Shown here piece by piece: positions 6,001-58,700 of a stretch of DNA of 64,000 bases. The notes below the pieces were generated by a model. It had not been told where the DNA came from and made no database searches. It was given only the letters and a program-made list of their open reading frames with translations. The position numbers and the translations under genes are program-made. Each line of letters opens with the position of its first letter. The stretch's first letter is position 1. The stretch is from a virus: the IMG/VR virus record IMGVR_UViG_3300020438_000007, positions 62,001 through 126,000 of that record; one strand, 5' to 3'.

Positions 6001-6005
6001 AACTT

Positions 6006-7904: not shown

Positions 7905-7931
7905 TAAAAAAAGAGGGTTGTATAAACCCTC
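7905..7931 (-). terminator. Intrinsic terminator after regA
   Basis: Minus-strand GAGGGTT and AACCCTC (plus 7925-7931 and 7913-7919) form a 7-bp stem with a 5-nt loop, followed by a run of T. It closes the operon that runs from gene 44 through 62 and regA. The hsp20 -10 element lies just beyond it. Confidence 0.88.
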
Positions 7932-7951
7932 AAAGATCATAGTGGTAACCG

Positions 7952-8413: not shown

Positions 8414-8790
8414 CCTGTACCTCCAACGTCAATGCGTTCTTTAATAAAATTCAACTGCTCTTTGGTTAAGATTTTCAACGCTTGCATTGCTTTATCATTA
8501 CTATAACCATAGTATTGTTTCACAACGTCAAGATCTTTGATCTTATCTTTGCGGAGCCAAGGAGAGAATCTCTTCTTCTTCCTGATGCTATTTAGATAAA
8601 AGTGATATTGAAGATCCTTTGATAGGTGATGATTGATATTCATTTCATTAGCAAACATAATACAATCAGTATGTGCTGACATACATTTGTTCACAATGAA
8701 TGGTGGATACTTCTTGATCGCTTCGGGGTCATCCTTCGTAAGATCCTGTTTGGTGAGGTTTACAGAGTTCAACCAGTCTTTTAGTTCCAT
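8410..8790 (-). CDS. gp62: Clamp loader small subunit gp62
   Basis: The non-ATPase subunit of the gp44/62 complex that loads the gp45 sliding clamp. At 126 residues it is shorter than T4 gp62 (187), as usual for marine T4-like phages. Recognisable segments are MELKDWLNSVNLTKQDLT, the FIVNKCMSAHTDCIMFANEMN helix pair and SIRKKKRFSPWLRK. It lies between a small unknown gene (10-nt overlap) and regA (ATGA overlap), the marine T4-like order. Confidence 0.93.
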   Translation of the reverse strand: MELKDWLNSVNLTKQDLTKDDPEAIKKYPPFIVNKCMSAHTDCIMFANEMNINHHLSKDLQYHFYLNSIRKKKRFSPWLRKDKIKDLDVVKQYYGYSNDKAMQALKILTKEQLNFIKERIDVGGTG

Positions 8791-8972
8791 TCTTTTTTCA
8801 CTTTAAAGTACATTTTATAGTATCGTCCTTTCATTTCTTCAAGGACTTTCATGTCATCACCAAATCCCATATACTTGAGATTTTGATATGTTCCCTCAAG
8901 GTCACTAATAAGCAACAAAATATTAACGGGAGATATCTCTCTGCCACCGTACTGATATTCTTCAGGTGTCAT
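8781..8972 (-). CDS. Hypothetical 63-aa protein
   Basis: Small acidic N-terminus and basic C-terminus (ends KMYFKVKKEWN), mostly helical by composition, with no recognised motif. Its stop overlaps the gp62 start by 10 nt and its start is 3 nt downstream of the 380-aa gene, so it belongs to the clamp-loader operon. Function unknown. Confidence 0.7.
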   Translation of the reverse strand: MTPEEYQYGGREISPVNILLLISDLEGTYQNLKYMGFGDDMKVLEEMKGRYYKMYFKVKKEWN

Positions 8973-8975
8973 TAG

Positions 8976-10118: not shown

Positions 10119-10356
10119 CGATCATATAATCAGTCATGGGAGGAGGTGGAACTAAAGGTGCATAGTATCCTCTGGGTGAAATTGGTACTTGCAACATGTC
10201 AATGGTTTCCTCAAACCATCTGTTCATTGATCTTGCCATTTTATTGTATGAGGTTCCAACAAAGAGTTGGCCTACAAGTACAGATGTTGTTGCAGTTCCC
10301 CAGAACAGATAGTAGAATTTGCTTTTAACTTGATGTCGTACTTTTTTCTTAGTCAT
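10105..10356 (-). CDS. Small membrane protein with proline-rich tail
   Basis: About 83 residues from the ATG at 10356 (MTKKKVRHQVKSKFYYLFWG), chosen because it gives an 8-nt overlap with the preceding gene. A longer frame from 10446 would overlap that gene by 98 nt. A basic N-terminus is followed by one hydrophobic span (TATTSVLVGQLFV), then a soluble part ending in PPPPMTDYMIDDIN. Likely a single-pass inner-membrane protein, N-terminus inside. Function unknown; it pairs with another membrane gene just upstream. Confidence 0.68.
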   Translation of the reverse strand: MTKKKVRHQVKSKFYYLFWGTATTSVLVGQLFVGTSYNKMARSMNRWFEETIDMLQVPISPRGYYAPLVPPPPMTDYMIDDIN

Positions 10357-14002: not shown

Positions 14003-16675
<2,673 letters not shown>

Positions 16676-42407: not shown

Positions 42408-42411
42408 TTAT

Positions 42412-43110
42412 ATGAAAAAGTATTTTATTGATGAAGAAGAAACATTTGCAATTAGTGACGAGTTAGGCGCAAGAGTAGAACTCATGGGATGGCAAGAAAT
42501 TCCCATAGTTTACGTTGATAATTTCTACAAGAATCCAGACAAGGTAAGGAATCTAGCACTCAGATGTCCAGGCACAAATAACCCTAGAATATGTGGAGGA
42601 GTGCCTGGAGTTAGGGTAGATATGAATATGAATTTAGATCATATGCACGATGTATTCAAACAAATTGCAAAAAATGTGTATGGACTGACAATAAAAGAAG
42701 ATCCTCAATTTGATCAAGCATGTTTAAATATTCCCTTTTCTGTCAACGTAACTCAATCAAAAGATAGAGTCAAAATACCTCATGTAGACTACCCACCAGA
42801 AACTAAAGGTAGAGGATGGGCTGGGTTAATATATCTAAACAAAGGTAAAGAATGTAAGGGTGGTACTGGGTTTTATACATATAAAGGGCAACAAGTTAAT
42901 CCATTCCAAGATGGAATTTGGACAGAAGATTTTGTTGATGATACTATAGGTCCTTGGGACTTAATACATCTAGCAGAAATGAAGTACAATAGAATGATAT
43001 TGTACCCTGATAATATTCTCCATGGCGCATATGATAAGCCTGGTTTCTTTGAAGGAGAGGACTATAGGTTGGCCCAAGTATTCTTTATACCACTACATTT
43101 TTTCTCATGA
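42412..43110 (+). CDS. DUF6445-type putative oxygenase
   Basis: A 232-residue protein starting MKKYFIDEEETFAISDELGA; the frame extends upstream but the ATG at 42412 is the first outside gene 13. Pattern: PIVYVDNFYKNPDKVRNLAL, GGVPGVR, KIPHVDYPP, GWAGLIYLNKGKECKGGTGF, and MKYNRMILYPDNILHGAYD with RLAQVFFIP. The His-x-Asp, later His and Arg are arranged as in 2OG-Fe(II) oxygenases, and the overall match is to DUF6445. A paralogue lies at 51621-52280, at the other end of the sugar cassette. It overlaps the hldD-like gene by ATGA. Confidence 0.78.
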   Translation: MKKYFIDEEETFAISDELGARVELMGWQEIPIVYVDNFYKNPDKVRNLALRCPGTNNPRICGGVPGVRVDMNMNLDHMHDVFKQIAKNVYGLTIKEDPQFDQACLNIPFSVNVTQSKDRVKIPHVDYPPETKGRGWAGLIYLNKGKECKGGTGFYTYKGQQVNPFQDGIWTEDFVDDTIGPWDLIHLAEMKYNRMILYPDNILHGAYDKPGFFEGEDYRLAQVFFIPLHFFS

Positions 43111-43940
43111 TTATTCTTACAGGATACAAAGGTTTTATAGGTCAAGCATTTGAAAAGAGAATAGATCCAGAAAATCTTTATAGAGTTGAAAAAGATGGTG
43201 CATTTGATTTCATAGATCAATATGATAAGTGGGATGAAGTAGAGTTTATTCTACATCAGGGAGCGCTCTCAAGCACTACTGAGACTGATGTAAATAAAAT
43301 TCACAAATACAATGTAGAGTTTTCAATCAAACTATTTGAGAAAGCAATAGAACACTCTATCCCAGTCAAATATGCTTCAAGTGCATCGGTCTATGGTAAG
43401 ATACATGCTGACTTTGGATACCTAAAAGGAACAATCAATCCATTAAATTTCTACGCACTGAGCAAAGCGACTGTAGATTATTGGGTTACAGATCACATGG
43501 ATGAGTTTAAATTGGTACAAGGATTTAGATACTTCAACGTATATGGAGAAGGTGAAGATCATAAAGGATCTCAAGCAAGTCCTATCAGTAAGTTTACCAA
43601 ACAAGCAAAAGAGAATGATGTCATCAAAATCTTTGAAGACTCAGAATATGCCTTTAGAGATTTTGTATGTGTAGATGATATAGTAGATGTTGTTCTAGAT
43701 AACACAGCAGGGAGTGGCATCTATGATGTTGGAACTGGTAATCCAGTCTCTTTCCAAGAGGTTGCGGAATTGGTTGCTAAGAAAGAAGGGGCAGATATTG
43801 AAGTAATCCCTTTCCCCAAACATCTAGAAGGTAAGTATCAAGAATACACATGTGCAGATACCTCTTGGTATGATCACGATTATAAATCAGTATCCGAATA
43901 TCTTAAATTACCAGCAACAACCACTCTGCCATCACATTGA
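43107..43940 (+). CDS. hldD: HldD-like ADP-glyceromanno-heptose 6-epimerase
   Basis: Short-chain NAD(P)-dependent epimerase, 277 residues. GYKGFIG at the N-terminus binds the cofactor. FILHQGALSSTTETDVNK, PVKYASSASVYG, the catalytic YALSK (YxxxK), QGFRYFNVYGEGEDHKGSQA and the closing VIPFPKHLEGKYQEYTCAD all match HldD specifically rather than generic UDP-sugar epimerases. The enzyme would convert ADP-D- to ADP-L-glycero-D-manno-heptose. It is on the plus strand, convergent with the rest of the heptose genes, and its last 61 nt overlap the oppositely oriented oxygenase gene. Confidence 0.85.
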   Translation: MIILTGYKGFIGQAFEKRIDPENLYRVEKDGAFDFIDQYDKWDEVEFILHQGALSSTTETDVNKIHKYNVEFSIKLFEKAIEHSIPVKYASSASVYGKIHADFGYLKGTINPLNFYALSKATVDYWVTDHMDEFKLVQGFRYFNVYGEGEDHKGSQASPISKFTKQAKENDVIKIFEDSEYAFRDFVCVDDIVDVVLDNTAGSGIYDVGTGNPVSFQEVAELVAKKEGADIEVIPFPKHLEGKYQEYTCADTSWYDHDYKSVSEYLKLPATTTLPSH

Positions 43941-44338
43941 TTTTTTGGTACAGAATGTGACTCATCTTGGAAAATGACACACATTCCTTCATGTGGTTGA
44001 ATACTATGTCCGTCAAAGTTTAAAGGAGAACTGCCTGGCGGAGTAGAAACATAGTAAACAAATGAGTAATCATTTTTACCATGTCTATGTTCATAAGCAA
44101 AATCACCGTAATTATATACAGCACCCCATAATTGATATTTTATTTTATCTGAATCTAATTCTAATTTTTCTACAACCCAATCTTTTAACTTAATAAAAGG
44201 TTTAGGATATGTATGGTATCCTGTATGTTTCTCTACTGCAAGATTACTAAACTCGTATGTGTCATGAGGCAAAAAATCTATCCATGACCTCAGTTCTTTG
44301 TTCAAAGATAAATCAGGATAATATACAATGTCAATCAT
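43880..44338 (-). CDS. 2OG-Fe(II) oxygenase-like protein (152 aa)
   Basis: Short member of the phage oxygenase family: YEHRHGKNDYSFVYYVSTPP supplies the metal-binding region, SSPLNFDGH follows, and MCVIFQDESHSVPKNQCDGR with VVVAGN gives the distal His and the 2OG-binding Arg. It resembles 6785-7390 most. Its start overlaps the upstream hydroxylase gene by 8 nt. Its 3' end overlaps the plus-strand hldD-like gene by 61 nt. Substrate unknown; a sugar or amino-acid side chain is suggested by context. Confidence 0.75.
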   Translation of the reverse strand: MIDIVYYPDLSLNKELRSWIDFLPHDTYEFSNLAVEKHTGYHTYPKPFIKLKDWVVEKLELDSDKIKYQLWGAVYNYGDFAYEHRHGKNDYSFVYYVSTPPGSSPLNFDGHSIQPHEGMCVIFQDESHSVPKNQCDGRVVVAGNLRYSDTDL

Positions 44339-44933
44339 GATACATGGGTATATCGTAGTTGTAGTTTATAAAGGCAGTTAGTATATACTTGTCATGTGAT
44401 ATATTTACGTTAGATCCGTGTGGAAACATCCAGTTGCATGGGAATAATAATATTTTACCCATTTCACATTTACATCCAATATTCCAATCAGGGAAGAATG
44501 TTTCTCCTCCCTCATCCACATCATTCAAATATATGATACAAGCAAATAATCTGGATATAGTTCCACCCTGTGCTTGATCTACATGTGTTTTAAATATACC
44601 CTCCCCCTTTGGATATACTCTAATTGTATAATCCAATATTGCAAGATCTGATGATGGTAATACTGGTAATCGTAATCTATAATTCAAATATGCTTTCTGA
44701 ATTATATTAGTCATTAAGTTTGCATACTTATGTCCAGCCTCAAACATAAACTGAGTGCAGTTCTTATGTTCTTTGTTTACTAACTTACCTTTATATTCTC
44801 CGTCTTTAAAATGTTCTACTTTACCATCATCATGTAATTCTTTATGATCCCAGAAATACTTTATTAACTCATCACACTGTTCCTGTGACAACACATCTCT
44901 TTCGACATATATCATGTCGGTGATCTTATCCAT
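44331..44933 (-). CDS. Prolyl-4-hydroxylase-like 2OG-Fe(II) oxygenase
   Basis: A 200-residue protein with the complete P4H-type site: THVDQAQGG (His-x-Asp pair), LFACIIYLNDVDEGGETFFP, then LLFPCNWMFPHGSNV with the distal His and DKYILTAFINY with the Lys that binds 2-oxoglutarate. The N-terminal VERDVLSQEQCDELIKYF is the family's helix. Substrate could be a virion protein or the cassette's sugar product. Overlaps both neighbours by 8 nt. Confidence 0.85.
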   Translation of the reverse strand: MDKITDMIYVERDVLSQEQCDELIKYFWDHKELHDDGKVEHFKDGEYKGKLVNKEHKNCTQFMFEAGHKYANLMTNIIQKAYLNYRLRLPVLPSSDLAILDYTIRVYPKGEGIFKTHVDQAQGGTISRLFACIIYLNDVDEGGETFFPDWNIGCKCEMGKILLFPCNWMFPHGSNVNISHDKYILTAFINYNYDIPMYHD

Positions 44934-45333
44934 CTATTAAATCGCCAGGCATAATCCTATGTGAATCTGAATCCATATGTTCTGTACTAAACTCAAACAG
45001 TTCAGTATCTTCCAGTGCAAACATACGATGCTTCAGGCCGATGGGAACATGAAACTTGTCCCCTCTTCTTAATATTGTTATCTCTGCTTTTTCTATATCG
45101 TCATCCCATCCATGAAAGAGTTTGATCTTTCCACTCTGAACAAAAAATACTTCGTCTTTTAATTTATGGAAGTGCCATGAACACTGTTTATCCTTTGCAA
45201 TAAACAATAGTTTACCACAATACTTCTCGCAGTTTGCAATCCATTTTTCATATCCCCATCCCTTCGGCACATATTTAACAGGTTCTGCCGCACGAGCATT
45301 ACGAGGTCTTCTACTTGGTCCAAAAGAAGTCAT
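44926..45333 (-). CDS. Cupin-fold sugar-metabolism protein
   Basis: A 135-residue single cupin. GWGYEKWIANCEKYCGKLLF, CSWHFHKLKDEVFFVQSGKI and PIGLKHRMFALEDTELFEFS carry the two cupin motifs with metal-binding His residues and Glu. Proteins of this kind accompany sugar nucleotide genes and resemble type II mannose-6-phosphate isomerase cupins. It could isomerise or epimerise a sugar phosphate, possibly filling the missing sedoheptulose-7-phosphate isomerase step, but that is speculation. It overlaps the HAD gene by 23 nt. Confidence 0.75.
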   Translation of the reverse strand: MTSFGPSRRPRNARAAEPVKYVPKGWGYEKWIANCEKYCGKLLFIAKDKQCSWHFHKLKDEVFFVQSGKIKLFHGWDDDIEKAEITILRRGDKFHVPIGLKHRMFALEDTELFEFSTEHMDSDSHRIMPGDLIDG

Positions 45334-45646
45334 CAGAGTTTACACCTTTGTCGTCAATAAAGAAATCAGCATGTGGTTTACCTAAGATTAAAGAATGATA
45401 TTTACATCCCCAATCACTAAGTTGTTTTTCCGTAAGATCAAATAACAGAACAGATGCCTTTGTACTTGCATCTGGATCATCACCGAATCGACCCATACCT
45501 CTAGCGGTAAAGTAGGTGATGTTATGACCTTCATCATATAACTTATTTATGATAGCAATCCGATCCTTCCACGGTTCTGCGGTGTGGTAATCCCTTCCTA
45601 CAGTTGGACTACAAATAGTGCCATCAATATCTACACAGTATCTCAT
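45311..45646 (-). CDS. HAD-family phosphatase-like protein (111 aa)
   Basis: Starts MRYCVDIDGTICSPTVGRDY with the nucleophile motif DIDGT. PWKDRIAIINKLYDEGHNIT, FTARGMGR and the final DFFIDDKGVNSDDFF (acidic motif IV) complete a compact HAD fold. The enzyme is of the short capsule-biosynthesis type that lies beside nucleotidyltransferases in sugar clusters. It could act on heptose-1,7-bisphosphate, but it is much shorter than GmhB and lacks its zinc loop, so that role is uncertain. Confidence 0.8.
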   Translation of the reverse strand: MRYCVDIDGTICSPTVGRDYHTAEPWKDRIAIINKLYDEGHNITYFTARGMGRFGDDPDASTKASVLLFDLTEKQLSDWGCKYHSLILGKPHADFFIDDKGVNSDDFFWTK

Positions 45647-45888
45647 ATTATTTCATCTCCTTCCACTTCTTCCATTTCTAATTCATGAACTTGATCATGA
45701 AATACTTCATGTTCTCCGATACGATAGAGATGTTTCATTTCGCCATCTTTATCTTCTCCCTCTCCCAAGTATTCAATATCATCACAACGATTTTCACGCA
45801 ACCACGCTTGCAGTCTGTGGTGCATTAGATCCGCCTTGCCTATCGACATTTTTTCCATTTCCTTCTCCGTATAGTGAGATAATATCAT
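45643..45888 (-). CDS. Hypothetical acidic protein (up to 81 aa)
   Basis: A small acidic protein ending HDQVHELEMEEVEGDEII. The stop overlaps the HAD gene as ATGA, which supports translation. The longest frame overlaps the kinase gene by 95 nt. Internal ATGs at 45849 (MSIGKADLMHHRLQAW) or 45825 would reduce that overlap, and I cannot decide between them. No recognised domain. Confidence 0.6.
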   Translation of the reverse strand: MILSHYTEKEMEKMSIGKADLMHHRLQAWLRENRCDDIEYLGEGEDKDGEMKHLYRIGEHEVFHDQVHELEMEEVEGDEII

Positions 45889-46627
45889 TCCCAGTTAGAT
45901 AGTAAGCGCCAGGATGTGTGACTGATATTGCAGCAGCTCTATTTGCTAAATCAATAGACTTCCGTATATCCTTTGTTCTTAAAAATTCATAGACTAGAGC
46001 TGCCATAAAGGTATCTCCAGCACCACATACATCAAAAACTTTGACTACCTGTGGGAGAAATTTTAAACCAGCCCATAATGCACCATCATTTCCAAGAGTG
46101 ACAATAAGATGAGTGTCATTAGGTAAATGGTCTTTGTCAAGGTCATTATATTCTTTCTTGTTTATTTTCCAGAATACATTATCTTTATGAAAAAGTCTAC
46201 GCTTCTTAGTGTCTACGAACACTGGTCTGTTAAAATTATGACATAGATTCCATAAATCATCTTCATTAAGGTATCCTTTGTCATAATCTGAAATAACAAT
46301 TGCATCAGGATCCATGTGCAACATTGCCATTTTCAATTCAGCATTTGCGATTCTACCCACCTTTGGAGTTTCATCTAAACGCAAGAACTGATAACCACTG
46401 GTAGTATCTATGAATCTTGTTTTAGTTATCTGTTCCCTCTGCGAAAGTAGAACAGTATTAACACCAAATGCCTTGAGATTCAATTCAGTGTTTGCAGCCA
46501 TACCTGGCCTCTCTTCTATTCTAGTTTGATCTAAAACAGGGACAGGTTGTTCTGGACTCAACCTAGTAGTTTTGCCAAAGACATACTTGTCTGTACACTT
46601 ATCACCTATAACAATTACATTAGCCAC
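45794..46627 (-). CDS. HldA/RfaE1-like heptose-7-phosphate kinase (PfkB family)
   Basis: A 277-residue ribokinase-fold sugar kinase. RLSPEQPVPVLDQTRIEERP and GMAANTELNLKAFG match the N-terminal kinase domain of HldE. SDYDKGYL, VDTKKRRLFH and the PfkB signature DVCGAGDTFMAAL with the catalytic Asp follow. It would phosphorylate D-glycero-D-manno-heptose 7-phosphate at C1. In many bacteria it is fused to the nucleotidyltransferase; here the two are separate adjacent genes overlapping by 8 nt. The C-terminal tail after PGAYYLTGND is unusually polar. Confidence 0.83.
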   Translation of the reverse strand: MANVIVIGDKCTDKYVFGKTTRLSPEQPVPVLDQTRIEERPGMAANTELNLKAFGVNTVLLSQREQITKTRFIDTTSGYQFLRLDETPKVGRIANAELKMAMLHMDPDAIVISDYDKGYLNEDDLWNLCHNFNRPVFVDTKKRRLFHKDNVFWKINKKEYNDLDKDHLPNDTHLIVTLGNDGALWAGLKFLPQVVKVFDVCGAGDTFMAALVYEFLRTKDIRKSIDLANRAAAISVTHPGAYYLTGNDIISLYGEGNGKNVDRQGGSNAPQTASVVA

Positions 46628-47015
46628 GAATCTTCTTTATGGTATCGGTTGTTGAATAATTTAGACGAGGTAAGAACCTTACTTCTTTGGCAAATTTTCT
46701 GCCAACTACATCTCCACCTTTCCAGTCATCTCCTAACAATAGTATATCAGGAGAGTATAATTTTATCAACCCCTCTAATTCTTTCCTATCGTTAAAGTAA
46801 AAAACTTCATCGATATATTTTATCGCTTGTAACATCGAAACTCTGTCACAAAGGTTATTGATGGGCTTAGTTTCACCCTTATCTTGACGTATCTTCTCAT
46901 CGGTATCTGTTGCTACTATTAGTTTATCTCCTAGAGATTTTCCAACTTTAAATAATTCTATATGGCCTGGGTGTAGAATATCGAATGTTCCATTACACCA
47001 TACTATTCTATTCAT
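46620..47015 (-). CDS. HldC/RfaE2-like heptose-1-phosphate nucleotidyltransferase
   Basis: A 131-residue nucleotidyltransferase. NGTFDILHPGHIELFKVGKS has the HxGH signature, LIVATDTDEKIRQDKGETKP, then RVSMLQAIKYIDEVFYFND, SPDILLLGDDWKGGDVVG and the closing STTDTIKKIRG. The last motif (STT near the end) is typical of HldE C-terminal domains. With the kinase gene downstream it would make ADP-heptose, the substrate of the HldD-like epimerase. Glycerol-3-phosphate cytidylyltransferase is the alternative. Confidence 0.82.
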   Translation of the reverse strand: MNRIVWCNGTFDILHPGHIELFKVGKSLGDKLIVATDTDEKIRQDKGETKPINNLCDRVSMLQAIKYIDEVFYFNDRKELEGLIKLYSPDILLLGDDWKGGDVVGRKFAKEVRFLPRLNYSTTDTIKKIRG

Positions 47016-48499
47016 AATGTATCTATGGTCTCACTAAGATAAAGTGTTTGAATAACAGAGTCTGCTTGATTTTTAGGCAGAGTGTTCTCAATATAATTTG
47101 TTAATCTAGGTATGACAGATTGATCTGTTTTCCAATACTCTTTAGGATTGATATCATTTGTCATTAACTGTAGTAACCATACTTGCCAGTTAGTACCATC
47201 AAAGAATGAACCCAACTTTCCTGTTTGAGGAGTTTTTACATTGGGATCTTGAATATATTCCTCTATTATTTTTTGCATTGGTGATTTCTGATATTTAGAT
47301 CTAACATAATCCCAAAACTTGCCTTCCCTTCTACAGTAGGAATAGTGCATATTTACATAATCCACTGCACTCTCATAACTACACTTCATTTTAGCATCAT
47401 AGAGAGGTGATTCTACTCTACTATTAAAGTAACCACCATAAAGACTTTCATCCAAATATTCAACACCTCTAATCATCAGTGCAAGTCCTGTACTTTCTAA
47501 TGGTTCAATAAATCCAGCAGAAAGTCCAATAGGAACTACATTACCCTCCCAGAAGTTTTTGACATATTGAGGTTTCCAATCAAGCAATCTCATTTCATCT
47601 GGTTTGATTCTACCGTTCCAATGATCCGAGAAAGCTTGTCTTACTTCATCTGGATCATTGATATCTCGATTGAAACAATATCCTGTACCTATTCTAGATC
47701 TTGTAGGAATCTTCCATATCCAACCATGTTCCTGTGCAGGGCAAGCAGTATATGGATGTTGTTCTACTCTGTAATCTTCATACTTTACTCTACCAGCAAG
47801 AGCAGCATTTATAAACAATCTATCACCTAGATCAGTATTATCTTTACCAATTAGAAGTTGTTTCCAACCAGTACAATCTACAAATAAATCTCCAGTAATT
47901 ATTGATCCATCATCTAATACCAATTCTTTGATATTGGATTTAGTTATATCGTCTGCTTGTCCATCTCTAATAACATTTACTACATCAGATTGAATATATT
48001 TACAATAAGGTATAGTGTGTTTCATTAAAAACTGCACTAGCTTTCCACAGTCAATCTGAAAGGCGTATGAATCATGAGTATAATCTGTTTCTATTCTATT
48101 TGACCTAGAAGAGACATACATTGGAGAGATATTTTTTATATCATACTTATCTTGAAATGATTGCCATAGGTCATATAAAGGTACTTTAGAATCTCCTACA
48201 CTTGTAAAAGAAAAAGGATGCCAAATTTCTTCATCTTCATGACCCCAGCCAGGAAATAATATACCAGACTTAAATGTTGCATCTACTTCTTTCAACCATT
48301 CTTTAGGTTCATATCCCATTTGTCGCATGACATTTGGGAAACTAAGAAGGGTTGCTTCTCCTACACCAATTCTTTCTGGTTCAGACTTATCGATAATTAC
48401 TACTTCAAAATCTTTTGACCATCTACGAGCAAACCAAGATGCTGTAATCCATCCAGCAGTTCCTCCCCCAACAATAACTAATCTTTTAATTCTTTTCAT
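47012..48499 (-). CDS. Flavin-dependent tryptophan-halogenase-family protein
   Basis: A 495-residue FADH2-dependent halogenase-like protein. GGGTAG at 11-16 binds FAD. The Lys of ATFKSGILFPGW (Lys77, matching PrnA Lys79) is the residue that forms the chloramine. GWIWKIP is the family signature that blocks monooxygenase chemistry, and PIGLSAGFIEPLES carries the conserved Glu. All key residues are present, so it should be active. Substrate unknown; tryptophan, a protein side chain or a glycan-linked aromatic are possible. ATGA overlap with the nucleotidyltransferase gene ties it to the sugar genes. Confidence 0.88.
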   Translation of the reverse strand: MKRIKRLVIVGGGTAGWITASWFARRWSKDFEVVIIDKSEPERIGVGEATLLSFPNVMRQMGYEPKEWLKEVDATFKSGILFPGWGHEDEEIWHPFSFTSVGDSKVPLYDLWQSFQDKYDIKNISPMYVSSRSNRIETDYTHDSYAFQIDCGKLVQFLMKHTIPYCKYIQSDVVNVIRDGQADDITKSNIKELVLDDGSIITGDLFVDCTGWKQLLIGKDNTDLGDRLFINAALAGRVKYEDYRVEQHPYTACPAQEHGWIWKIPTRSRIGTGYCFNRDINDPDEVRQAFSDHWNGRIKPDEMRLLDWKPQYVKNFWEGNVVPIGLSAGFIEPLESTGLALMIRGVEYLDESLYGGYFNSRVESPLYDAKMKCSYESAVDYVNMHYSYCRREGKFWDYVRSKYQKSPMQKIIEEYIQDPNVKTPQTGKLGSFFDGTNWQVWLLQLMTNDINPKEYWKTDQSVIPRLTNYIENTLPKNQADSVIQTLYLSETIDTL

Positions 48500-48541
48500 G
48501 GTCTTCTTGATATGGATATTCGTATTCTTTTATCTCTCTCA

Positions 48542-50344
48542 TCAGTTCTTTACTTCGATCATAAGACCATGTTCAGGCAGATAGAGGTATTCTATCAAAC
48601 TGTTTGCAAGAGTCCTCAGAGCGTCATCTAGGGTCTCTACAAGAGGTTCTCCGCCTAGGTTGAAGGATGTATTGAAGATAATAGGACATCCTGTCTTCTC
48701 GTAGAAGGTATTGATTACATTATAGTAATTTGGATTCACTTCTTTAGTAACAGTCTGTATCCTACATGTATCATCAACATGAATAATTGCTGGAATCTTT
48801 TCTTTGATTCCTTCTTGACATTTAACTGCATACATCATAAATGGTGTATCATCCATACCACGAAGATCAAACCATTCATGCACATGTTCTTTCAATATTG
48901 ATCCAGCAAAAGGCCTGAAATATTCACGACGTTTGATGGCATTGACATGATCTTTTCCTTTAGGATCTCTAGGATCGTACATGATTGATCTGTTACCCAA
49001 TGCACGAGGGCCAGCTTCCGACTTACCTTGGAACATTGCAACAATATTTTTCTTCGTAATCAAATCAACTACGTCTTCATCTGTTGCCTCAAAGATCCTA
49101 GTTGCATCATAATAATTTGCAAGGTCTGTAATATACTCGGTATCATATTCATGTACAGGTCCATAGTATAGATCTGTCATGGGTGGATGAACTTTCGTAT
49201 TCTTACTTACTTTCTGGTAGTGCCAGTACGCAGCACCTATCGCTGTTCCAGCATCATTACTTACTGGTTCTACAAATAGATTAATACCTTCATCTTTTAG
49301 TTGTTCAAGATACCAATAGTTTGCAACACAGTTTAATCCATATCCACCAGAGAGAACAACATTCTTTTCTCCACTCATCTTAACTGCCTTACGAATCAAA
49401 TCCAGAACCATCTGTTCTGATTCTATTTGAATAGCATAAGCCATATCTCTACGGTTTTGTAATTTAGTAATATCCTTTACCGATTGCGTATCCATAGGTT
49501 CTCTTAGTTCTACGAATCTACCTTTGTTTACTATAGCACCATTAGGATAGGTAGGTACAATAAGATCTCGATTAGTGGTAGACCAATCACTCATCCCATC
49601 ATGGTCAGTGTAGATATCTGGTATCTTTAAATTCTGTTGACCGTAAGGGAAGAGTCCCATAGTTTTTCCAGCTTCAATAGGAGACCAACCACAATATTGT
49701 GTTACTGCCTCATAAGCTTTTACAATACCAGCAGTGTCATCTAAAATTAATTCATGAGTTCCCTCCTCATCTTCTCTACTAGATGGGAAATTAAATAATC
49801 TTACAGCACCATAAGGACCTCTACCTCCCTGATGTTTGTATAGAGTCTTGAACTTATCTGGATATTCACATTTGATAATCGTTTCTAGTTCCCATGTCAT
49901 CTCCTGTTCACCATCAATCTCCATAGGGATGAATGTTCCAGCACCATCTACAATGACAGATACTGCACTCTCAAATCCTGATCTAAAGAAAGCACAAGAT
50001 GAATGAAGTTTATGATGAATATGACTGTAATCTACAACTTGAGGATGTTTATAGATGTCTGCTTGACGATCAATAAGACCTAGTTTTCTTGCAAGAGAAA
50101 CGTAGATAGGTTCTCCTGTAAAATCATTAGATGCAGCCTGATCTAGAGGTTGTGTATGTGCAACTACAAGATAATCAAGTGTATCGGTGTAATCCAATAT
50201 CTTGATCATGGATGCCAAAGGACCTCCATCATATTTCTTTCTTGATAGTCTCTCCTCTTCAATGGAGAAAACTAGTTGTCCATCTTTCAGTAGGCATACA
50301 CCAGAGTTGTGACCTCTAGCGATTGCAGCAATCCATTGTGTCAT
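48542..50344 (-). CDS. NodU/CmcH-family carbamoyltransferase
   Basis: A 600-residue O-carbamoyltransferase, which transfers carbamoyl phosphate to a hydroxyl via an adenylate. The N-terminal ASKHA-fold domain begins MTQWIAAIARGHNSGVCLLK with IEEERLSRKK; VDGAGTF and VLSGGYGLNCVANYW follow. The C-terminal YrdC-like domain has SEAGPRALGNRSIM and FNTSFNLGGEPLV. Family members carbamoylate sugars and antibiotics. Here the likely acceptor is a sugar in the glycan assembled by neighbouring genes; that is inference. Gaps to neighbours are short, so it is in the same operon. Confidence 0.9.
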   Translation of the reverse strand: MTQWIAAIARGHNSGVCLLKDGQLVFSIEEERLSRKKYDGGPLASMIKILDYTDTLDYLVVAHTQPLDQAASNDFTGEPIYVSLARKLGLIDRQADIYKHPQVVDYSHIHHKLHSSCAFFRSGFESAVSVIVDGAGTFIPMEIDGEQEMTWELETIIKCEYPDKFKTLYKHQGGRGPYGAVRLFNFPSSREDEEGTHELILDDTAGIVKAYEAVTQYCGWSPIEAGKTMGLFPYGQQNLKIPDIYTDHDGMSDWSTTNRDLIVPTYPNGAIVNKGRFVELREPMDTQSVKDITKLQNRRDMAYAIQIESEQMVLDLIRKAVKMSGEKNVVLSGGYGLNCVANYWYLEQLKDEGINLFVEPVSNDAGTAIGAAYWHYQKVSKNTKVHPPMTDLYYGPVHEYDTEYITDLANYYDATRIFEATDEDVVDLITKKNIVAMFQGKSEAGPRALGNRSIMYDPRDPKGKDHVNAIKRREYFRPFAGSILKEHVHEWFDLRGMDDTPFMMYAVKCQEGIKEKIPAIIHVDDTCRIQTVTKEVNPNYYNVINTFYEKTGCPIIFNTSFNLGGEPLVETLDDALRTLANSLIEYLYLPEHGLMIEVKN

Positions 50345-50348
50345 AATC

Positions 50349-51602
50349 TCAATCTTTCTTTTCTATAGTAATTGCATTTTCTTTATCAGATTTTAACAAA
50401 TTCTTGATTTCAGATTGGAAACCTTTGTTATTCTTTGGCTTCTTTGGTTTTGGAAGTTCCATAGTAAAGGTAGGTTTTGGAGCACCACTCATCGTTGGTA
50501 CACTGTCTCCTTTTCCTGATGGCAACCAATTTGATGTTCCTTGCATTGGTTGTGGTTGTTGCATGGGAGGTGCAATACCTTGTTGTGGTTGTTGAGGTTG
50601 GTTTGGTGGACAAGATTGTCCTTGCTGTTGTTGTGGAGGAACAAAAGTACCTGTGTATGCTTTCGATTTACCCAATCTCTTCCTACAAGATGCAACAATT
50701 TCATCAATATGTTTCTTACTTAGTTCCATCGATTCATCATTGAAACGATCTATTGTTTCGTCCATTGCAATTCTGATAGGAGCATATTCTCTACGTCCAT
50801 TTCCAACATCAATAATATCGAAGTCTTTGTGGCCTGGATAACTAATGTTTTCTGGATATGTGGAACCAATCACAACGGTTGCAGTCTTATCAAATGATCT
50901 TGCAATATGTTGACCCATACTGTCACATCCTAAGAAGTGATCAGCAATCTCAATCACAGCAGCCCAAACTCTCATATCACTAATTTGTGGTCTAGCAATA
51001 GGATATTTACCTTCATTCTCCTCAACAGCAAAGTGATGTTCACTCATTACAATTACTGCGTAATCTTTCTTTAGACTATTGATAATATCTACAGCTCCTG
51101 TAAGAGGCATACTTCTGGAAGTTGGATCTGCAATAAACTCTCCCATCTGTTGAATAGATCTGCCAAATGGTTGAATTACAATTACCTTGTCTTTTTTAGT
51201 AACAGATTTAATTTCTTCAACAATATTATAGGCAGTAATGACCTCTGTTTTATTGAGATTCAATGTGGGTTTAGGAAGTTTTCTAGGTTCTTTTAACCCA
51301 TTAATTGCCATATCATATGCTTGTGCTAAATTGCACTGTTGATTATAATAGTGCCACACTCTATATGGTTCTGGACTTTCGCAGTCCCTTTGTTTAATAT
51401 GTTCTTGGAATACTCTTTTATGCCAATGGTCGTAGACCTTATCATCTAATGTCGGATGTCCTTTAAAGAAGTCAGTTCCGCCCTCACAAATGATAACAAA
51501 ATCATCATGGGTTTCTGCATATTTTTCAAATGCTGGTATTGAACTTATTACTCTCCCTGCCCCACCATTGATGAAGAATGCTTTTGATCTCATAGTTCTC
51601 AT
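50349..51602 (-). CDS. GT9/heptosyltransferase-like protein with Pro/Gln-rich tail
   Basis: A 417-residue protein. Residues 1 to about 310 look like a GT-B glycosyltransferase of family 9: KAFFINGGAGRVISSIPAFE at the N-terminus, KVIVIQPFGRSIQQ at the start of the second Rossmann domain and DHFLGCDSMGQHIARSFDKT, the usual donor-binding loop. ADP-heptose would be a natural donor given the neighbours. The C-terminal 100 residues are low-complexity (PPQQQQGQSCPPNQPQQPQQ and more), ending in a basic helix. That tail is unusual for a glycosyltransferase and might anchor it to another protein. Confidence 0.72.
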   Translation of the reverse strand: MRTMRSKAFFINGGAGRVISSIPAFEKYAETHDDFVIICEGGTDFFKGHPTLDDKVYDHWHKRVFQEHIKQRDCESPEPYRVWHYYNQQCNLAQAYDMAINGLKEPRKLPKPTLNLNKTEVITAYNIVEEIKSVTKKDKVIVIQPFGRSIQQMGEFIADPTSRSMPLTGAVDIINSLKKDYAVIVMSEHHFAVEENEGKYPIARPQISDMRVWAAVIEIADHFLGCDSMGQHIARSFDKTATVVIGSTYPENISYPGHKDFDIIDVGNGRREYAPIRIAMDETIDRFNDESMELSKKHIDEIVASCRKRLGKSKAYTGTFVPPQQQQGQSCPPNQPQQPQQGIAPPMQQPQPMQGTSNWLPSGKGDSVPTMSGAPKPTFTMELPKPKKPKNNKGFQSEIKNLLKSDKENAITIEKKD

Positions 51603-51620
51603 AATTCCTATAGTATATAG

Positions 51621-52280
51621 TCACATAAAAAATACCTGTGCCAGACGAGGATGTTCCTTAAACATCTTTCGATTTATGTCTGCTCCGTGGGTACATTCAG
51701 CTTCATACATTATCATTCTATTATATTTCATTGGACATGTAAACTGTATATCTTTTCGTATATTGTAATCACCATAGGCATGATCTGTCAGATATTTGTA
51801 AAAATCTGTTCCGCCTTCGCACTCCTCATCTTTGTTCAAATAAACTAGAGCGGCCCAACTAGAATTATCGTCTTTGTGATGAGTGTAACAATAGACAGTC
51901 TTAGTAAATCTTTCATTTATATCTTTGTTGGTAGTATGGTTGACCCAGAACTTTTGATTATCCCATCTATAATCAAACATTCCTTCACTAAATTGAATAT
52001 TAGTCCATTCCGAATGTTGGCAAAGTTCTTTGAAAACTGGTTTCAAAATCTCAATCATATCTGGTCTATCTTCAACAACTCTCGTTCCTATAAGACCGCC
52101 ACAATGTTCTTTGTCACCTGTTCTATCGCATGATAGAGCGTAATCCCTGACTTCATCAGGGTTCTTGTAGAAGTCATCTACTACAAATACTTTTCTCCAC
52201 TGGTAACCAGCGTCACTAAATCTATCGTAGTCATAACATTTTTTTATAAGAGAAATCTGAACAGGATTTATTTCAAACAT
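51621..52280 (-). CDS. DUF6445-type putative oxygenase, second copy
   Basis: A 219-residue paralogue of 42412-43110: FVVDDFYKNPDEVRDYALSC, GGLIGTR, TVYCYTHHKDD, SSWAALVYLNKDEECEGGTD and MKYNRMIMYEAECTHGADIN with RLAQVFFM. The first metal-ligand area reads YTHHKDD rather than HVDYPP, so details differ. The two copies bracket the sugar-modification cassette on opposite strands. A terminator of the upstream transcription unit lies just before it. Confidence 0.75.
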   Translation of the reverse strand: MFEINPVQISLIKKCYDYDRFSDAGYQWRKVFVVDDFYKNPDEVRDYALSCDRTGDKEHCGGLIGTRVVEDRPDMIEILKPVFKELCQHSEWTNIQFSEGMFDYRWDNQKFWVNHTTNKDINERFTKTVYCYTHHKDDNSSWAALVYLNKDEECEGGTDFYKYLTDHAYGDYNIRKDIQFTCPMKYNRMIMYEAECTHGADINRKMFKEHPRLAQVFFM

Positions 52281-52284: not shown

Positions 52285-52314
52285 TAAAAAAGATCCCCTT
52301 ATTAGGAGGATCTT
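52285..52314 (-). terminator. Intrinsic terminator after the 261-aa structural gene
   Basis: Minus-strand AAGATCC and GGATCTT (plus 52308-52314 and 52290-52296) form the stem, with inner CCT/AGG pairing, followed by a T run. It separates the fibre genes from the sugar cassette. Confidence 0.82.
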
Positions 52315-53160: not shown

Positions 53161-53168
53161 TATTTATA
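53161..53168 (-). promoter_or_regulatory. Late promoter TATAAATA adjoining a terminator
   Basis: Exact minus-strand TATAAATA, 33 nt before the ATG of 52343-53128 and sharing bases with the T-run of the terminator at 53168-53192. Confidence 0.8.
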
Positions 53169-53272: not shown

Positions 53273-54064
53273 TTAGACGTAGGTGATTTTAACGAGTCCT
53301 CCTCCACCTTGACCGCCCTGTCCGCAACAACTACTTCCACAGTAGTTACTGTTTGCACCTTGTCCGCCGTGTCCATAGGGAACTGTCCAACAACCACATC
53401 TCATCCAACACTGTCTTTGTCCATATGAAACACCAAGAGTTCCGATGAATGGAGCACCTGTTGGTCTACCTTCGTTATAGTAACAGTGACAGTTGAATCC
53501 GTCAGGTCTGTATGAGTTACCACCGTGGTTGCCCATTCCGAAGTCTCCTCCGTGAGCGCCAGGTTGCATACAGCAAGTATGGAATTCAGAATAACAGTTT
53601 GCAGACCAGTCACCAGTTGCACAACCTCTAACACCACCTAAGGCACAGAAGTTAGATAGGTTATATCCATTTACATAGGAGTTACATCCGCAACATCCTG
53701 TACACTCTCTAGAACAACATCTATAAACACCAGCAGCACAGACACTGTATTGGCAACCAGACTTAGTACTAATAGTTTTAGTATTATAGTACCCTCCTCC
53801 AGCACCATGCCAGTTTTGACATCTGTTACATGAACATGCACCGTGTCCGTTACCTCCAGATCCCCATATCTCAAATGTAGCTCGTGTTACACCCGTTGGA
53901 ACTGTCCAAAGGCAACAACAGCCAGGTGTACAGTAACATGGATGTCCATAGACCCATTTTACACACCAGTTTGAGAAAGAACCCGCTTGAACCTTTGATG
54001 CTGGAATACTTCCATCCTCAAATGTCGAGGCATTAATTTGTTTATAACTTGAGTAAGTAGCCAT
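53273..54064 (-). CDS. Cysteine- and glycine-rich virion/adhesin-like protein, copy 1
   Basis: A 263-residue protein with 30 cysteines (over 11 percent). Residues 1-35 resemble a fibre-attachment segment (YSSYKQINASTFEDGSIPAS). CYCTPGCCCLWTVPTGVTRA and FEIWGSGGNGHG begin a Gly_rich_2-like beta domain. Clusters GACSCNRC, CCSRECTGCCGC and CWMRCGC follow, and the end GQGGQGGGGLVKITYV is the typical C-terminal glycine-rich strand. Possible roles are a receptor-binding tip stabilised by disulfides or metals. It is the most distal of three tandem paralogues and is followed by a terminator. No signal peptide. Confidence 0.82.
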   Translation of the reverse strand: MATYSSYKQINASTFEDGSIPASKVQAGSFSNWCVKWVYGHPCYCTPGCCCLWTVPTGVTRATFEIWGSGGNGHGACSCNRCQNWHGAGGGYYNTKTISTKSGCQYSVCAAGVYRCCSRECTGCCGCNSYVNGYNLSNFCALGGVRGCATGDWSANCYSEFHTCCMQPGAHGGDFGMGNHGGNSYRPDGFNCHCYYNEGRPTGAPFIGTLGVSYGQRQCWMRCGCWTVPYGHGGQGANSNYCGSSCCGQGGQGGGGLVKITYV

Positions 54065-54073
54065 TTCTTCCCC

Positions 54074-54868
54074 TTAGAAGTATGTAATTTTGACGAGACC
54101 GCCACCGCCAGTACCGCCTTGTCCGCAGCACCCACCACAATATGTAGTCATAGCGCTCTGTCCGCCGTGACCGTAAGGTACGATCCAGCAACCACAACGA
54201 ATCCAACATTCTCTAATAGATTGAGTAACTTGTGTACCAATCAACGGTGCAGAAGTAGGTCTATGACCATAGTGGTAACAGTGACACCAACCTCTATAAG
54301 TATCATGTCTTGATGAAGACCAAGTACTGGTCTGGTTGCCCATTCCGAAGTCTCCGTTGTTTGAAGTAGGACCTAAACAACAGCAATTTTGTGCGTTACA
54401 AGCAGTTGACCAACTTGGGTTAGCGTTTCCACGGTTTCCACCTTTGGCACAGAAGTTAGATAAGTTGTATCCATTTACATAAGATGAACAACCTGTACAT
54501 CCATAACACTCTCTAGAGAGACATGGATAAACACCAGCCGCACAAATACTGTAAGAACAACCACCATTGGTTGTAATCATTTTGGAGTTGTAGTATCCTC
54601 CAGAAGCACCATGATAGTGCTGACATCTGTTACATGAACATGCACCAGTACCATTTCCTCCAGCACCCCACATCTGAATCCACATGTTTCCAACCCCAGT
54701 AGGGGCTGACCAGTTACAGCAACAGCCTGGTGAACAACGGCAGTTTGTACCGAATACCCATTTTACGCCGTAACTTTCGTTAGGAGATCCACTGAAACTT
54801 CCAGCGTCAAGGCTATTGTCCTCTAAGGAATCTCCACTGATTTTTTTGTATGATGAATAACTTGCCAT
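54074..54868 (-). CDS. Cysteine- and glycine-rich virion/adhesin-like protein, copy 2
   Basis: A 264-residue paralogue with 27 cysteines. It has the same landmarks (CRCSPGCCCNWSAPTGV, MWGAGGNGTGACSCNRCQ, CLSRECYGCTGC, CWIRCGCWIVPYGHGGQ, GGGGLVKITYF). The region around residues 160-215 differs most between copies, and here reads NAQNCCCLGPTSNNGDFGMG followed by Ser/His-rich sequence. That pattern of conserved frame and variable window suggests a diversifying surface. Nine nt separate it from copy 1. Confidence 0.82.
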   Translation of the reverse strand: MASYSSYKKISGDSLEDNSLDAGSFSGSPNESYGVKWVFGTNCRCSPGCCCNWSAPTGVGNMWIQMWGAGGNGTGACSCNRCQHYHGASGGYYNSKMITTNGGCSYSICAAGVYPCLSRECYGCTGCSSYVNGYNLSNFCAKGGNRGNANPSWSTACNAQNCCCLGPTSNNGDFGMGNQTSTWSSSRHDTYRGWCHCYHYGHRPTSAPLIGTQVTQSIRECWIRCGCWIVPYGHGGQSAMTTYCGGCCGQGGTGGGGLVKITYF

Positions 54869-54880
54869 TTTTGTTTAATC

Positions 54881-55666
54881 CTAGACGTAGGTAATTCGTA
54901 CAACACCAGAGCCGCCTTGGCCGCCCTGACCACAACAACTACTTCCGCAGTATGTAGTCTGAGCACCTTGACCACCTGTCGCATAAGGAGCAGTCCAACA
55001 ACCACATCTCATCCAACATTGTTCCAGCTGCACCTCGGTTCCAGCTGATAGGAACGGAGCTCCTGATCCTTCTTCACTTGTAACCGCACCAGTACAGTGA
55101 CAGTTCCAGTGACCTGACCAACCTTTTTGGTGAGGAGCCATTGCGAAGTCTCCACCCCATGTTCCAGGCGATGCACAGCACCAGTGTCTAGATGTACATC
55201 TAATTGACCAGTCGGGGTTTGCACAACCTCTTGCACCACCAATGGCACAGAAGCCACTTAAGTTGTAACCGTTAACGTATGAAGAACATCCATCACATCC
55301 GTTACACTCTCTTGAACAGCACCTGTAAACACCACCAGCACATACAGAATATGAGCAACCAGCAGCGGTACTGATTGTTTTAGTATTGTATGCACCTCCA
55401 GCAGCACCTTGATAGTGATGACATCTGTTACATGAACATGCACCATGTCCGTTACCACCAGCACCCCAGATTTCTAGGGTTAGTTTACCTACACCTGCTG
55501 GGACAGTCCAGTTACAGCAACAGCCAGGTGTGCAATAACATGGATGTCCATAGAACATCTTGACACAATAGTCAGGGGTGCCACCCGCCGCCAGCTTCGA
55601 GATTGGGATGGTTCCCGAAGCGATTTGGTCGGATCTTACTTTTTTATATGATCTATAGTTGGCCAT
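54881..55666 (-). CDS. Cysteine- and glycine-rich virion/adhesin-like protein, copy 3
   Basis: A 261-residue paralogue with 29 cysteines, first of the three in transcription order. Landmarks: CYCTPGCCCNWTVPAGV, LEIWGAGGNGHGACSCNRC, CCSRECNGCDGC, CWMRCGCWTAPYATGGQ, and a GQGGQGGSGVVRITYV end. The N-terminus MANYRSYKKVRSDQIASGTI is close to that of copy 1. It follows the 1479-aa fibre gene, so these proteins are probably fibre tips or fibre-associated adhesins. Confidence 0.82.
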   Translation of the reverse strand: MANYRSYKKVRSDQIASGTIPISKLAAGGTPDYCVKMFYGHPCYCTPGCCCNWTVPAGVGKLTLEIWGAGGNGHGACSCNRCHHYQGAAGGAYNTKTISTAAGCSYSVCAGGVYRCCSRECNGCDGCSSYVNGYNLSGFCAIGGARGCANPDWSIRCTSRHWCCASPGTWGGDFAMAPHQKGWSGHWNCHCTGAVTSEEGSGAPFLSAGTEVQLEQCWMRCGCWTAPYATGGQGAQTTYCGSSCCGQGGQGGSGVVRITYV

Positions 55667-55717: not shown

Positions 55718-58700
55718 TTAGATGGAGAAGATTCTCCAACCGTATGTATCACCTGAGAAGATAAGTGTAAATGCGGCACTTTCTGTTTGAACAGTCAGGT
55801 CAGAAGCATCACCTTGGATGTTCTTACCGTTTCTTGCACAAACTAGTGCGTTAGAATCAAACGTCTTCGCAACGTCCATGAAAGTGACCTCATCACCCAA
55901 GTTAGGTGTTGCAGGCAAGGTCAATGTGACCTGGCCGCCACCTGTGTTAACAAAGTACTTAGTTCCAGCAACAACAGATCCACTTGAGGCAACTGTGGAG
56001 TACTGAGGTACACCAGGCTGAATCCATGCAGTACCGTTGTAGTACTCAAGAGCACCCAAGGTAGTGTTGAATCTTAAGCAACCAGTGTTGAACTCATCGT
56101 CGATACCGCCAGGTCTCTGACCTGTTGTACCAACTGGAGGTGTCATTGCCTTGGTTCCCATCTTCGCACGGGTTAAGAAACCTTTAGTTGCGAATTCAGT
56201 TGGACAAGCAGTGTTTGAGTTACCAGCGAGTGTCTCATCAGATGAGAATTCGTTGATCGCCTCACCGACCTGACCACCAATCGCACCAAGTCTCAATTCT
56301 GTCAAACCAGAAAGGTTGAACGCAGAAGCATCCAATGTAGCACGACCAGTCAACTGGTCAACGGAGAAGAAGTCTCCAACTCGGAAGTTACCACCTTGGT
56401 CGGTAGATACGAAGAACACCTTACCAGGTCCGAACACGTTAGTTTCTTGACCTTGGATAACGTTCGCCAAGTTGACGTTTGGATATCCAGTCTCAGTCTT
56501 GTTACCAGTACCAACTGCGAGGAAGTCATGTCCTGTTAGTCTTGCCTGTGAGAACAATGTTCTGATTTTAATATCGGAACTATTATTAGTACCGAGGTGT
56601 CGAGTATCCCATGTTCCATTTGACTTCTCAGGAGAGATCGTCAGAGTTGCACGGTTACTGAATACCGTTTGTACACCAGCGACTGATCCTGCTTGCCACT
56701 CATAGAAAGTGGATGCAACGGACACGCCCGTAATTGTGTTAATAATGTAGAACCTATCGTCAGCACCATATAGTGATGTCTGGAATCCGATAGCGTCACC
56801 GATTAATAGAGTAGCAGAAGTTTGGTCAACTTCTAGAATTGTACCTTTCTGTCCAGTTGTGGAAGATGCAGCTGCACCGACCGTGATTGAACCGACACCA
56901 GAACTCTGTTCTGCACCAGCACCGAACCAGATGATCTCACTGTCTACGAAACCAGTGGTTCCGATTCCAGCGTTACCGTATCCAGTCTGATACTTGAAGT
57001 AAATCTTATCAGCAGAGATCTGATCGTTCAAGAACCATCCAGTTGCCTTAGATGTCTGACCGAACATTGTAGCACCTAATGCCACTGTTCCAGACTTAGT
57101 TGTACCTTGAACTTCCATCATGTCACCGAAGACTTTTGCAGTTCTCGGAACTTCATCAGTTGAGAAACCAGATGAGATAACACCGTAGTCTCCGTAAGAG
57201 TTGTTTCCACCAACACCCCTGATTCTTGATCCACCACCTGAGTAGTAACCCCACTTAGCGTAGTATGTGAAACAGGAAACGATTTCAGCGATTGCACCCT
57301 TATCAAGGATGTAACCAGCACCGTCAGATGCAACGTGCGTAAACGCATCGAACACCATTGATTTTGCACCTGTGTCGTGTACACCACCATCGATGAATAC
57401 ACCAACACCACCACCACCGAATCTGCCACTTTCTGTTGCAGGGTCAGAGAAACAAGTACAGTCCTTAACGTAAGGTGACTTGTTATCGATAGGTGAATCT
57501 GGGTTCAAGGAGATGAACACACCAGCAGCGGTTGTACCGATACCAGTTCTTAAGTTTGCATTGTCTAACTCTAAAGGAGCGTTAGGATCATAGTAGAATC
57601 CTTCCATTCCTTTCATGGAGATTGCCTGAATGGTTGTCGCATCAGACATCTTAAACATGTGACTCCTGTTGTTAGGAGTTGTAGAGTCATCAGATGTTCC
57701 CTCTTTAGGAAGAACCTGTGAACCTCTAAGTGCGTTACCAACAATCGAAGTGAAAGGAGGAACTGTAACTGGTAACTGTTCGTAGAACTGAGACGCAGAC
57801 AGTTTCAAGATAGCAGGTGTTAGGTCTGTTACCTTACCGCCTTCAACGTATGTGTGGTTGATAGTTGAGATACCAACGTTAACTTTGAATGAGTCAGAGT
57901 TATCAACTTGAAGAACCTCATAGTAGGACTTAGAGACCTTATCAGGATACTTGGTTGTTGTTAGACCAACGAACGCAGTACCACCAGAAACATAGAGGTA
58001 ATCAGTAGTTGAAACACCTACGTTAAGAGTGATTGAGTTAGAGTCAGGAACACCTTGAACCAAGAATTCGTAAGAACCTTGAGTATGTACAGCAGGGAAC
58101 TTACCAGTGATTGTCTGGTTATCAGATGCAGTACCAACGTTGATTGTAATTGTGTTGGTAGTAACAGAAGTAATGTTTAGAGCAGTGTTGTATGCAGGGT
58201 CTGGGTTTCCATCTCCAGCAACAGCACGAGGATAAGCGTGATCAGTTGTGTATCCGTCCATTGAACAACGGAATGTTAAACCATCTTCCGCTAGTTTTAC
58301 AGAAGTACCAACTGTTAATGAGTGAGCACCAATTGTACAAACCATGTCACCAGTTGCTTGGTTATAAGAAACCGCAGTTGGTTGATGATTGATGATTGGA
58401 GAAGATCCAACGTTTACAGTGAATGTATCAGTTGTTGTACCTGTAATTGATAACTGTTGTCCTCTTGCAGGGTCTTTGCCAGGTCTAGGATATGTCTTCT
58501 GAGTGGCATTGTTGTTCATCGTACAGGTGAACGTAAATGCGTTATCCCCAATGGTAACTTTATCAGAAGTTGATAAACTATGACCAGTAAGGGTCATAGT
58601 GAAGTTACCATTTGAAGGATCGTATGTAGCACCTGTAGGTGTTACTGAAGATCCACCAACAATTGAAACGCCGTTTGCAGCGCAACTGTTGAATGTGTGA

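Follow-up and report, generated by a model that had tools for sequence, protein, structure and literature searches.

A cyanophage cassette encoding a probable NDP-heptose pathway, with a cupin as candidate sedoheptulose-7-phosphate isomerase and a relative of heptosyltransferases

Gene clusters labeled as lipopolysaccharide (LPS) genes have been described in cyanophage genomes. Sullivan et al. 2010 (PMC3037559) noted the joint occurrence of T4-GC 304, 305, 307, and 308 under this label in three phages and asked whether the LPS genes are functional or filler. The report on SynMITS9220M01 (PMC7378029) names heptose genes in a cyanophage. Here, we analyzed an accessory cassette in a 64,000-base stretch (hereafter, the window), which comprises bases 62001–126000 of the 230,739-base virus record IMGVR_UViG_3300020438_000007; the record outside the window was examined by family searches. 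The nearest relative of the window genes was Synechococcus phage S-SSM7 (Kyanoviridae), with 76–86% protein identity for the HldA-like kinase and the glycosyltransferase (GT)-like protein. As a first-pass annotation of the window had proposed, the cassette is flanked by the neck genes gp13/gp14 and by fiber or fiber-assembly-like genes. It very probably encodes a nucleoside diphosphate (NDP)-heptose module. We further consider it probable that the module is a complete, phage-adapted pathway from host sedoheptulose 7-phosphate (S7P) to NDP-heptose, and that the cassette supplies tailoring enzymes and a dedicated relative of the GT9/TibC-fold heptosyltransferases.

We infer each reaction, the pathway order, the nucleotide, and the acceptor as follows. 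A cupin would isomerize S7P to D-glycero-D-manno-heptose 7-phosphate in place of GmhA, and the HldA-like kinase would convert this to the 1,7-bisphosphate. A HAD phosphatase would remove the 7-phosphate in place of GmhB, an HldC-like enzyme would form NDP-heptose, and an HldD-like epimerase would convert it to the L,D form. The GT-B protein would then transfer the heptose, and a NodU-type enzyme would carbamoylate the sugar or glycan. The target would most likely be the virion fiber or adhesin proteins encoded beside the cassette. S7P is a product of transketolase; family searches found a transaldolase but no transketolase in the window's own genome. A transketolase is annotated in the corresponding clusters of phages S-SM2 and P-TIM68.

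The six genes named in the first-pass annotation, for the HldA-, HldC-, and HldD-like proteins, the HAD phosphatase, the cupin, and the GT-like protein, are all open reading frames of this one cassette with family matches far above chance, and profile searches recovered each of the three Hld families. The HldA-like PfkB kinase (45794–46627, minus strand; 277 aa) matched TIGR02198 (2e-38) at 132 bits, versus 51 for ribokinase, the next family, and matched HldA in the Protein Data Bank (PDB; 4e84) at 1e-12. The GAGD motif was present in 26/26 relatives, and the HldA-type RxSPExPxPV stretch, KxR, and RxD were near-invariant. The HldC-like nucleotidyltransferase (46620–47015, minus strand; 131 aa) matched TIGR02199 (rfaE_dom_II; 2e-29) at 102 bits, versus 78 for glycerol-3-phosphate cytidylyltransferase, and its HxGH was invariant in 22 relatives. 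The HldD-like ADP-heptose 6-epimerase (43107–43940, plus strand; 277 aa) matched TIGR02197 (8e-62) at 209 bits, versus 45 for GalE, and PDB 1eq2 at 3e-60; it carries the Rossmann GxxGxxG, and Y116-x3-K120 was invariant among its relatives.

The HAD phosphatase (45311–45646, minus strand; 111 aa) is of the EcbF/BcbF type (TIGR01689, 2e-5; phrog_1238, 2e-31), the only subfamily that NCBIfam assigned; the GmhB-type HAD profile was not matched. Its residues D6, D8, T47, K90, D98, and D99 were invariant among relatives, and it matched a capsule biosynthesis protein in the PDB (9iqw, 1.5e-16). It is likely to be a functional substitute for GmhB and is the proposed 7-phosphatase. The database name "phosphoheptose isomerase" for this protein was rejected, as both the profile and the PDB matches show a HAD.

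Several observations on the Hld-like proteins weigh against the proposed pathway. Every one of them scored under its NCBIfam equivalog cut-off (345 for HldA, 181.5 for HldC, and 274.6 for HldD), and they are therefore regarded as divergent members of their families. In addition, the HldC-like profile matched cytidylyltransferases in the PDB better than HldC or LPS enzymes, whereas NCBIfam favored the HldE domain; hence ADP is the likely, but not a secure, nucleotide, and ADP-L-glycero-D-manno-heptose is the most likely product. The same PDB matches, together with the carbamoyltransferase and halogenase genes in the cassette, would suit a different activated sugar, such as CDP-heptose or a derivative bearing a carbamoyl group or a halogen, that serves as a small molecule or in the synthesis of a different polymer. 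We regard this as rather unlikely, since HldD specifically matches ADP-heptose epimerases and several relatives keep the module without the halogenase.

The first-pass annotation had noted that only the S7P isomerase step was not visible. Indeed, family searches found no SIS_2/GmhA protein in the 230 kb record; the step is, however, probably encoded by the cupin (44926–45333, minus strand; 135 aa; Cupin_2, 3e-6; phrog_7851, 6e-61). RefSeq phages name this protein cysteine dioxygenase, a family that was not among its Pfam matches at E values up to 10, and the name was rejected. L-ribose isomerase and D-lyxose isomerases were among the PDB matches of its profile (E 0.001–0.005). The conversions of D-xylulose to D-lyxose, D-fructose to D-mannose, and S7P to D-glycero-D-manno-heptose 7-phosphate involve one identical stereochemical change, so that the GmhA reaction has the stereochemistry of D-lyxose isomerase; it is this shared stereochemistry that makes an encoded isomerase step probable. 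In the D-lyxose isomerase of Thermofilum (TsLI), the metal ligands are H75, H77, E88, and H143, and K86, E156, and D163 are essential, their mutants being inactive (PMC8378251). Counted on the profile alignment, the four ligands correspond to H54, H56, E61, and H102 of the phage cupin, and the three essential residues to K59, E114, and D121. Six of these functional residues were invariant in 20 cupin relatives, and the seventh, D121, was Asp in 18 and Glu in 2. The motif HxH..KxE..H..E[VFIL]S..D/E was present in 20/20 cupins of the phage family, 14/14 planctomycete relatives, and 8/8 Lyx_isomer proteins, versus 0/9 type II mannose-6-phosphate isomerases (PMIs) and 0/13 other cupins. An assignment as type II PMI was likewise rejected: the profiles align, but PMI lacks KxE and the C-terminal E..D.

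Other findings count against this assignment of the cupin. The motif comparison was designed when both families had already been seen. The whole-cupin profile scored no higher with Lyx_isomer or PMI than with a generic cupin set, which rules out the profile–profile score as proof of an isomerase, and the cupin reached 15.3 bits with the Lyx_isomer Pfam model (PF07385), under the gathering cut-off of 20.8. The structure model had a pLDDT of 89, and its Foldseek matches were mixed. Moreover, the known lyxose isomerases, to our knowledge, act on free sugars, not sugar phosphates. Since generic cupins score as high and the fold matches are mixed, the case for the cupin rests on its residues and genomic context, from which we consider it probable that the protein is an S7P isomerase replacing GmhA. 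A host GmhA could instead supply this step, with the cupin serving in sugar binding or in nucleotide-sugar epimerization like the cupin of CapF. CapF was the best fold match of the cupin, and the printed CapF sequence also contains KxE, as would suit that role, and the equally high scores of generic cupin profiles leave room for it. We nevertheless judge it improbable, because the cupin retains E114 and D121 of lyxose isomerase, accompanies HldA without exception in the loci described below, and also adjoins a heptose-type kinase of the GHMP family.

The linkage of the genes was examined in IMG/VR loci fetched with the GT-like protein (42 loci) or HldC (80 loci), some loci being common to both sets. 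In 37 viral loci in which HldA is flanked by 3.5 kb or more of sequence in both directions, which are partly non-independent and span about 40–100% protein identity, HldC, HAD, and the cupin were each present in 37/37, HldD in 36/37, and the GT-like protein in 32/37, and a true GmhA in 0/37. Among 50,697 phage records, the cupin was found in 35 and HldA in 34, and comparison of the two lists by reading placed the cupin in all 31 cyanophage or marine HldA records. A true GmhA was found in 12 of the phage records, and its single overlap with the cupin was SynMITS9220M01, where GmhA lies ~6.5 kb from the cupin, beside its own kinase.

SynMITS9220M01 and Bellamy both lack HldA; the neighbors of the cupin in these phages are a GHMP kinase and an NTP_transferase, which represent the enzyme classes that operate in the GDP-heptose branch. 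This arrangement is consistent with an isomerase that acts ahead of either branch, and the cluster, judged from its gene classes, looks like a GDP-heptose-type branch. This second kind of cluster is located at 7964–9964 and 14577–16024 of the fetched SynMITS9220M01 locus (L194) and at 5994–7964 of the Bellamy locus (L195); SynMITS9220M01 additionally has a separate GHMP kinase and an SIS-type isomerase. The planctomycete relatives of the cupin had no hld genes in the fetched stretches, the G004 clusters excepted, so that their context was uninformative. One member of the cupin family stood alone, with no hld genes within 10 kb, at 9980–10339 of a phage-like stretch (L131) of a Halobacteriovorax metagenome-assembled genome (MAG), and a planctomycete protein at 8662–10188 of L190 joins a NeuB domain to a domain weakly related to the cupin. 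Five contigs (L125, L129, L130, L133, and L135) are labeled as Rhodobacteraceae, Planctomycetaceae, or Euryarchaeota MAGs. Among them, L125 and L135, which were found as cupin matches, contain phage neck and cassette genes; they are evidently phage contigs and look mis-binned. The clusters of L129 and L133 contain, as read from the sequence, two transketolase-like halves.

The cassette proteins are under purifying selection. The median ratios of nonsynonymous to synonymous polymorphism (pN/pS) were 0.10 for the cupin, 0.12 for HldC, 0.17 for HAD, 0.20 for HldD, 0.21 for the GT-like protein, and 0.27 for HldA, comparable to 0.15 for the neck gene gp13, and the active sites were invariant in relatives down to about 40% identity. 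Sullivan et al. raised the possibility that genes of this kind have no use and act as filler for the DNA content of a large capsid (PMC3037559); the pN/pS range of 0.10–0.27 and the invariant active sites largely refute it here, and we consider it very improbable.

The GT-like protein (50349–51602, minus strand; 417 aa; phrog_8954) had no Pfam match and was classified by fold and by profile–profile comparison. It matched the GT9 profile in hhalign (97%, E 7e-11). Its structure model has a confident core, with blocks mostly above 90, and a disordered Gln/Pro-rich tail; the top 30 PDB matches in Foldseek were all TibC, WaaF, WaaC, or a GT9 protein, with TM scores of about 0.4–0.5 by query. D227 and H232 were invariant, and the C-lobe D-S-x-x-x-H motif was kept. 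The predicted fold thus identifies the protein as a GT-B relative of the GT9/TibC-fold heptosyltransferases, by which heptose transfer would be catalyzed. One feature argues against such transfer. The catalytic Asp of WaaC, Asp13, lies in the N-lobe G-D of GT9. That of TibC is Asp110 (PMC4358343). On the GT9 profile alignment, the catalytic position is R17 in the phage protein, and G-R is found in 27/27 relatives. Since an invariant Arg replaces the catalytic Asp, the protein may work by a different mechanism, or sugar transfer may not be its function. Of the first-pass proposal that the cassette could make ADP-heptose and transfer it by a GT9-like enzyme, a linked NDP-heptose pathway and a heptosyltransferase-like protein, supported by its fold and profile, thus stand; the identity of the nucleotide is less secure, and the glycosyltransferase lacks the expected catalytic residue.

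The first-pass annotation made no mention of several other enzymes of the cassette: a carbamoyltransferase, a halogenase, and two oxygenases. The NodU/NolO-type O-carbamoyltransferase (48542–50344, minus strand; 600 aa; PF16861, 1e-59) matched novobiocin carbamoyltransferase (2e-49) and TobZ (4e-45) in the PDB. Carbamoylated heptose has a precedent in the LPS core of Pseudomonas aeruginosa (PMC7168646), so the presence of a carbamoyltransferase next to heptose genes makes chemical sense. The flavin-dependent halogenase of the Trp_halogenase family (47012–48499, minus strand; 495 aa; PF04820, 1e-82) is VirX1-like, matching the viral enzyme VirX1 (PDB 6qgm) at 1.8e-48. It was present in most close relatives and missing in several that keep the heptose module; a role as a core pathway step was ruled out by this incomplete conservation.

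As to the acceptor, the first-pass annotation had offered remodeling of host LPS or glycosylation of virion fibers. Marine Synechococcus LPS (strains WH8102 and CC9311) contains neither heptose nor 3-deoxy-D-manno-octulosonic acid (KDO) (PMC4515613), and ordinary heptosylation of an LPS core is hence unlikely; masking of the host surface and virion glycosylation were both retained. Decoration of the virion is our tentative first choice, weakly favored because the cassette lies beside fiber and glycine-rich genes and because TibC is a protein heptosyltransferase. Somewhat less plausible is that heptose is placed on the host surface, where a foreign sugar on LPS or an envelope glycan would mask receptors against superinfection. 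The GT-like protein is close in fold to WaaF and WaaC, S-SM2 and P-TIM68 carry the module within larger clusters annotated with glycosyltransferases, and LPS is a cyanophage receptor in some systems (PMC4390846), all of which would suit a surface role. Against it stand the absence of the normal acceptor from marine Synechococcus LPS, the lack of any Glycos_transf_1 or Glycos_transf_2 protein in the record by family search, and the adjoining fiber genes.

Expression signals were also considered. The late-promoter-like motif TATAAATA was found within 2.5 kb upstream of the GT-like gene in 59/74 loci. The window contains six copies on the minus strand and none on the plus strand; five of the six precede a start codon by 21–41 bases, and the sixth by 139 bases. 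The copy nearest the cassette (53161–53168, minus strand) stands 40 bases before the fiber-assembly-like gene upstream of it. A terminator-like hairpin (52290–52314, minus strand) separates that gene and this motif from the cassette, which weakens the late-promoter argument for use in the virion. With HldD encoded on the opposite strand as well, late expression of the cassette is only a possibility.

The remaining cassette genes encode DUF6445/phrog_1644 proteins at both ends (42409–43110, plus strand; 51621–52280, minus strand), likewise unlisted in the first-pass annotation; the two oxygenases, one 2-oxoglutarate (2OG)-Fe(II) oxygenase-like (43880–44338, minus strand; PF13759, 1e-5; phrog_81) and one 2OG-Fe(II) oxygenase (44331–44933, minus strand; PF13640, 6e-9; phrog_61); and a small phrog_2020 protein (45643–45888, minus strand) that overlaps the 3' end of HldA. 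Outside the cassette, three tandem Cys/Gly-rich proteins (53273–55666) adjoin a large fiber gene, and the two that were tested both belong to phrog_4205. Two further CTP_transf_like nucleotidyltransferases were seen elsewhere in the record, at window positions 2214–2426 (minus strand) and at record bases 57783–58085.

Taken as a whole, the following is a speculative proposal: a cupin of the D-lyxose isomerase type would be an unrecognized S7P isomerase that stands in for GmhA without being related to it, NDP-heptose would be made in hosts with heptose-free LPS, and the sugar, possibly carbamoylated, would be placed on virion fibers by a heptosyltransferase with an arginine in its active site. 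A literature search of partial coverage found nothing relevant on a cupin S7P isomerase. The question raised in 2010, of whether the "LPS genes" of cyanophages have a function or serve as filler, can now be reduced to an in vitro test of five enzymes. If the proposal is true, a second family of S7P isomerases would be a new enzyme assignment, a database name spread over many cyanophage genomes would be corrected, and the capture of the pentose phosphate pathway by phages (TalC and transketolase) would be tied to sugar decoration.

Compared with the canonical GmhA–HldE–GmhB–HldD pathway, the cassette has counterparts of HldA, HldC, and HldD, with HldA and HldC as separate proteins; homologues of GmhA and GmhB are absent, and the cupin and the EcbF/BcbF-type HAD are proposed in their place. 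Its genes are orthologous to the "LPS gene" clusters T4-GC 302–308 of S-SSM7, P-SSM2, and S-SM2 (PMC3037559) and to those of SynMITS9220M01 (PMC7378029). In the accessible parts of these two accounts, the names given to the cupin and HAD are misleading, the function is left open, and there is no description of selection, of the lyxose-isomerase signature, or of how complete the pathway is. With D-lyxose isomerase (PF07385; TsLI, PMC8378251), the cupin has in common seven functional residues and the stereochemistry of converting a ketose to a lyxo/manno aldose; it differs in its length of 135 aa, its lack of the TsLI N-terminal helices, its predicted phosphorylated C7 substrate, and its score below the Pfam cut-off. 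The GT-like protein shares the GT-B fold and the C-lobe D-S/T-x-x-x-H motif with the GT9 heptosyltransferases WaaC and WaaF and with TibC of the BAHT family (PMC4358343), but it has Arg for Asp and a disordered tail, and the TibC iron finger was not identified in it. Finally, the halogenase is homologous to VirX1 (PDB 6qgm), a flavin-dependent halogenase from a cyanophage, and differs from it in sitting within a heptose/carbamoyl cassette, a context that may hint at the natural substrate of VirX1-like halogenases.

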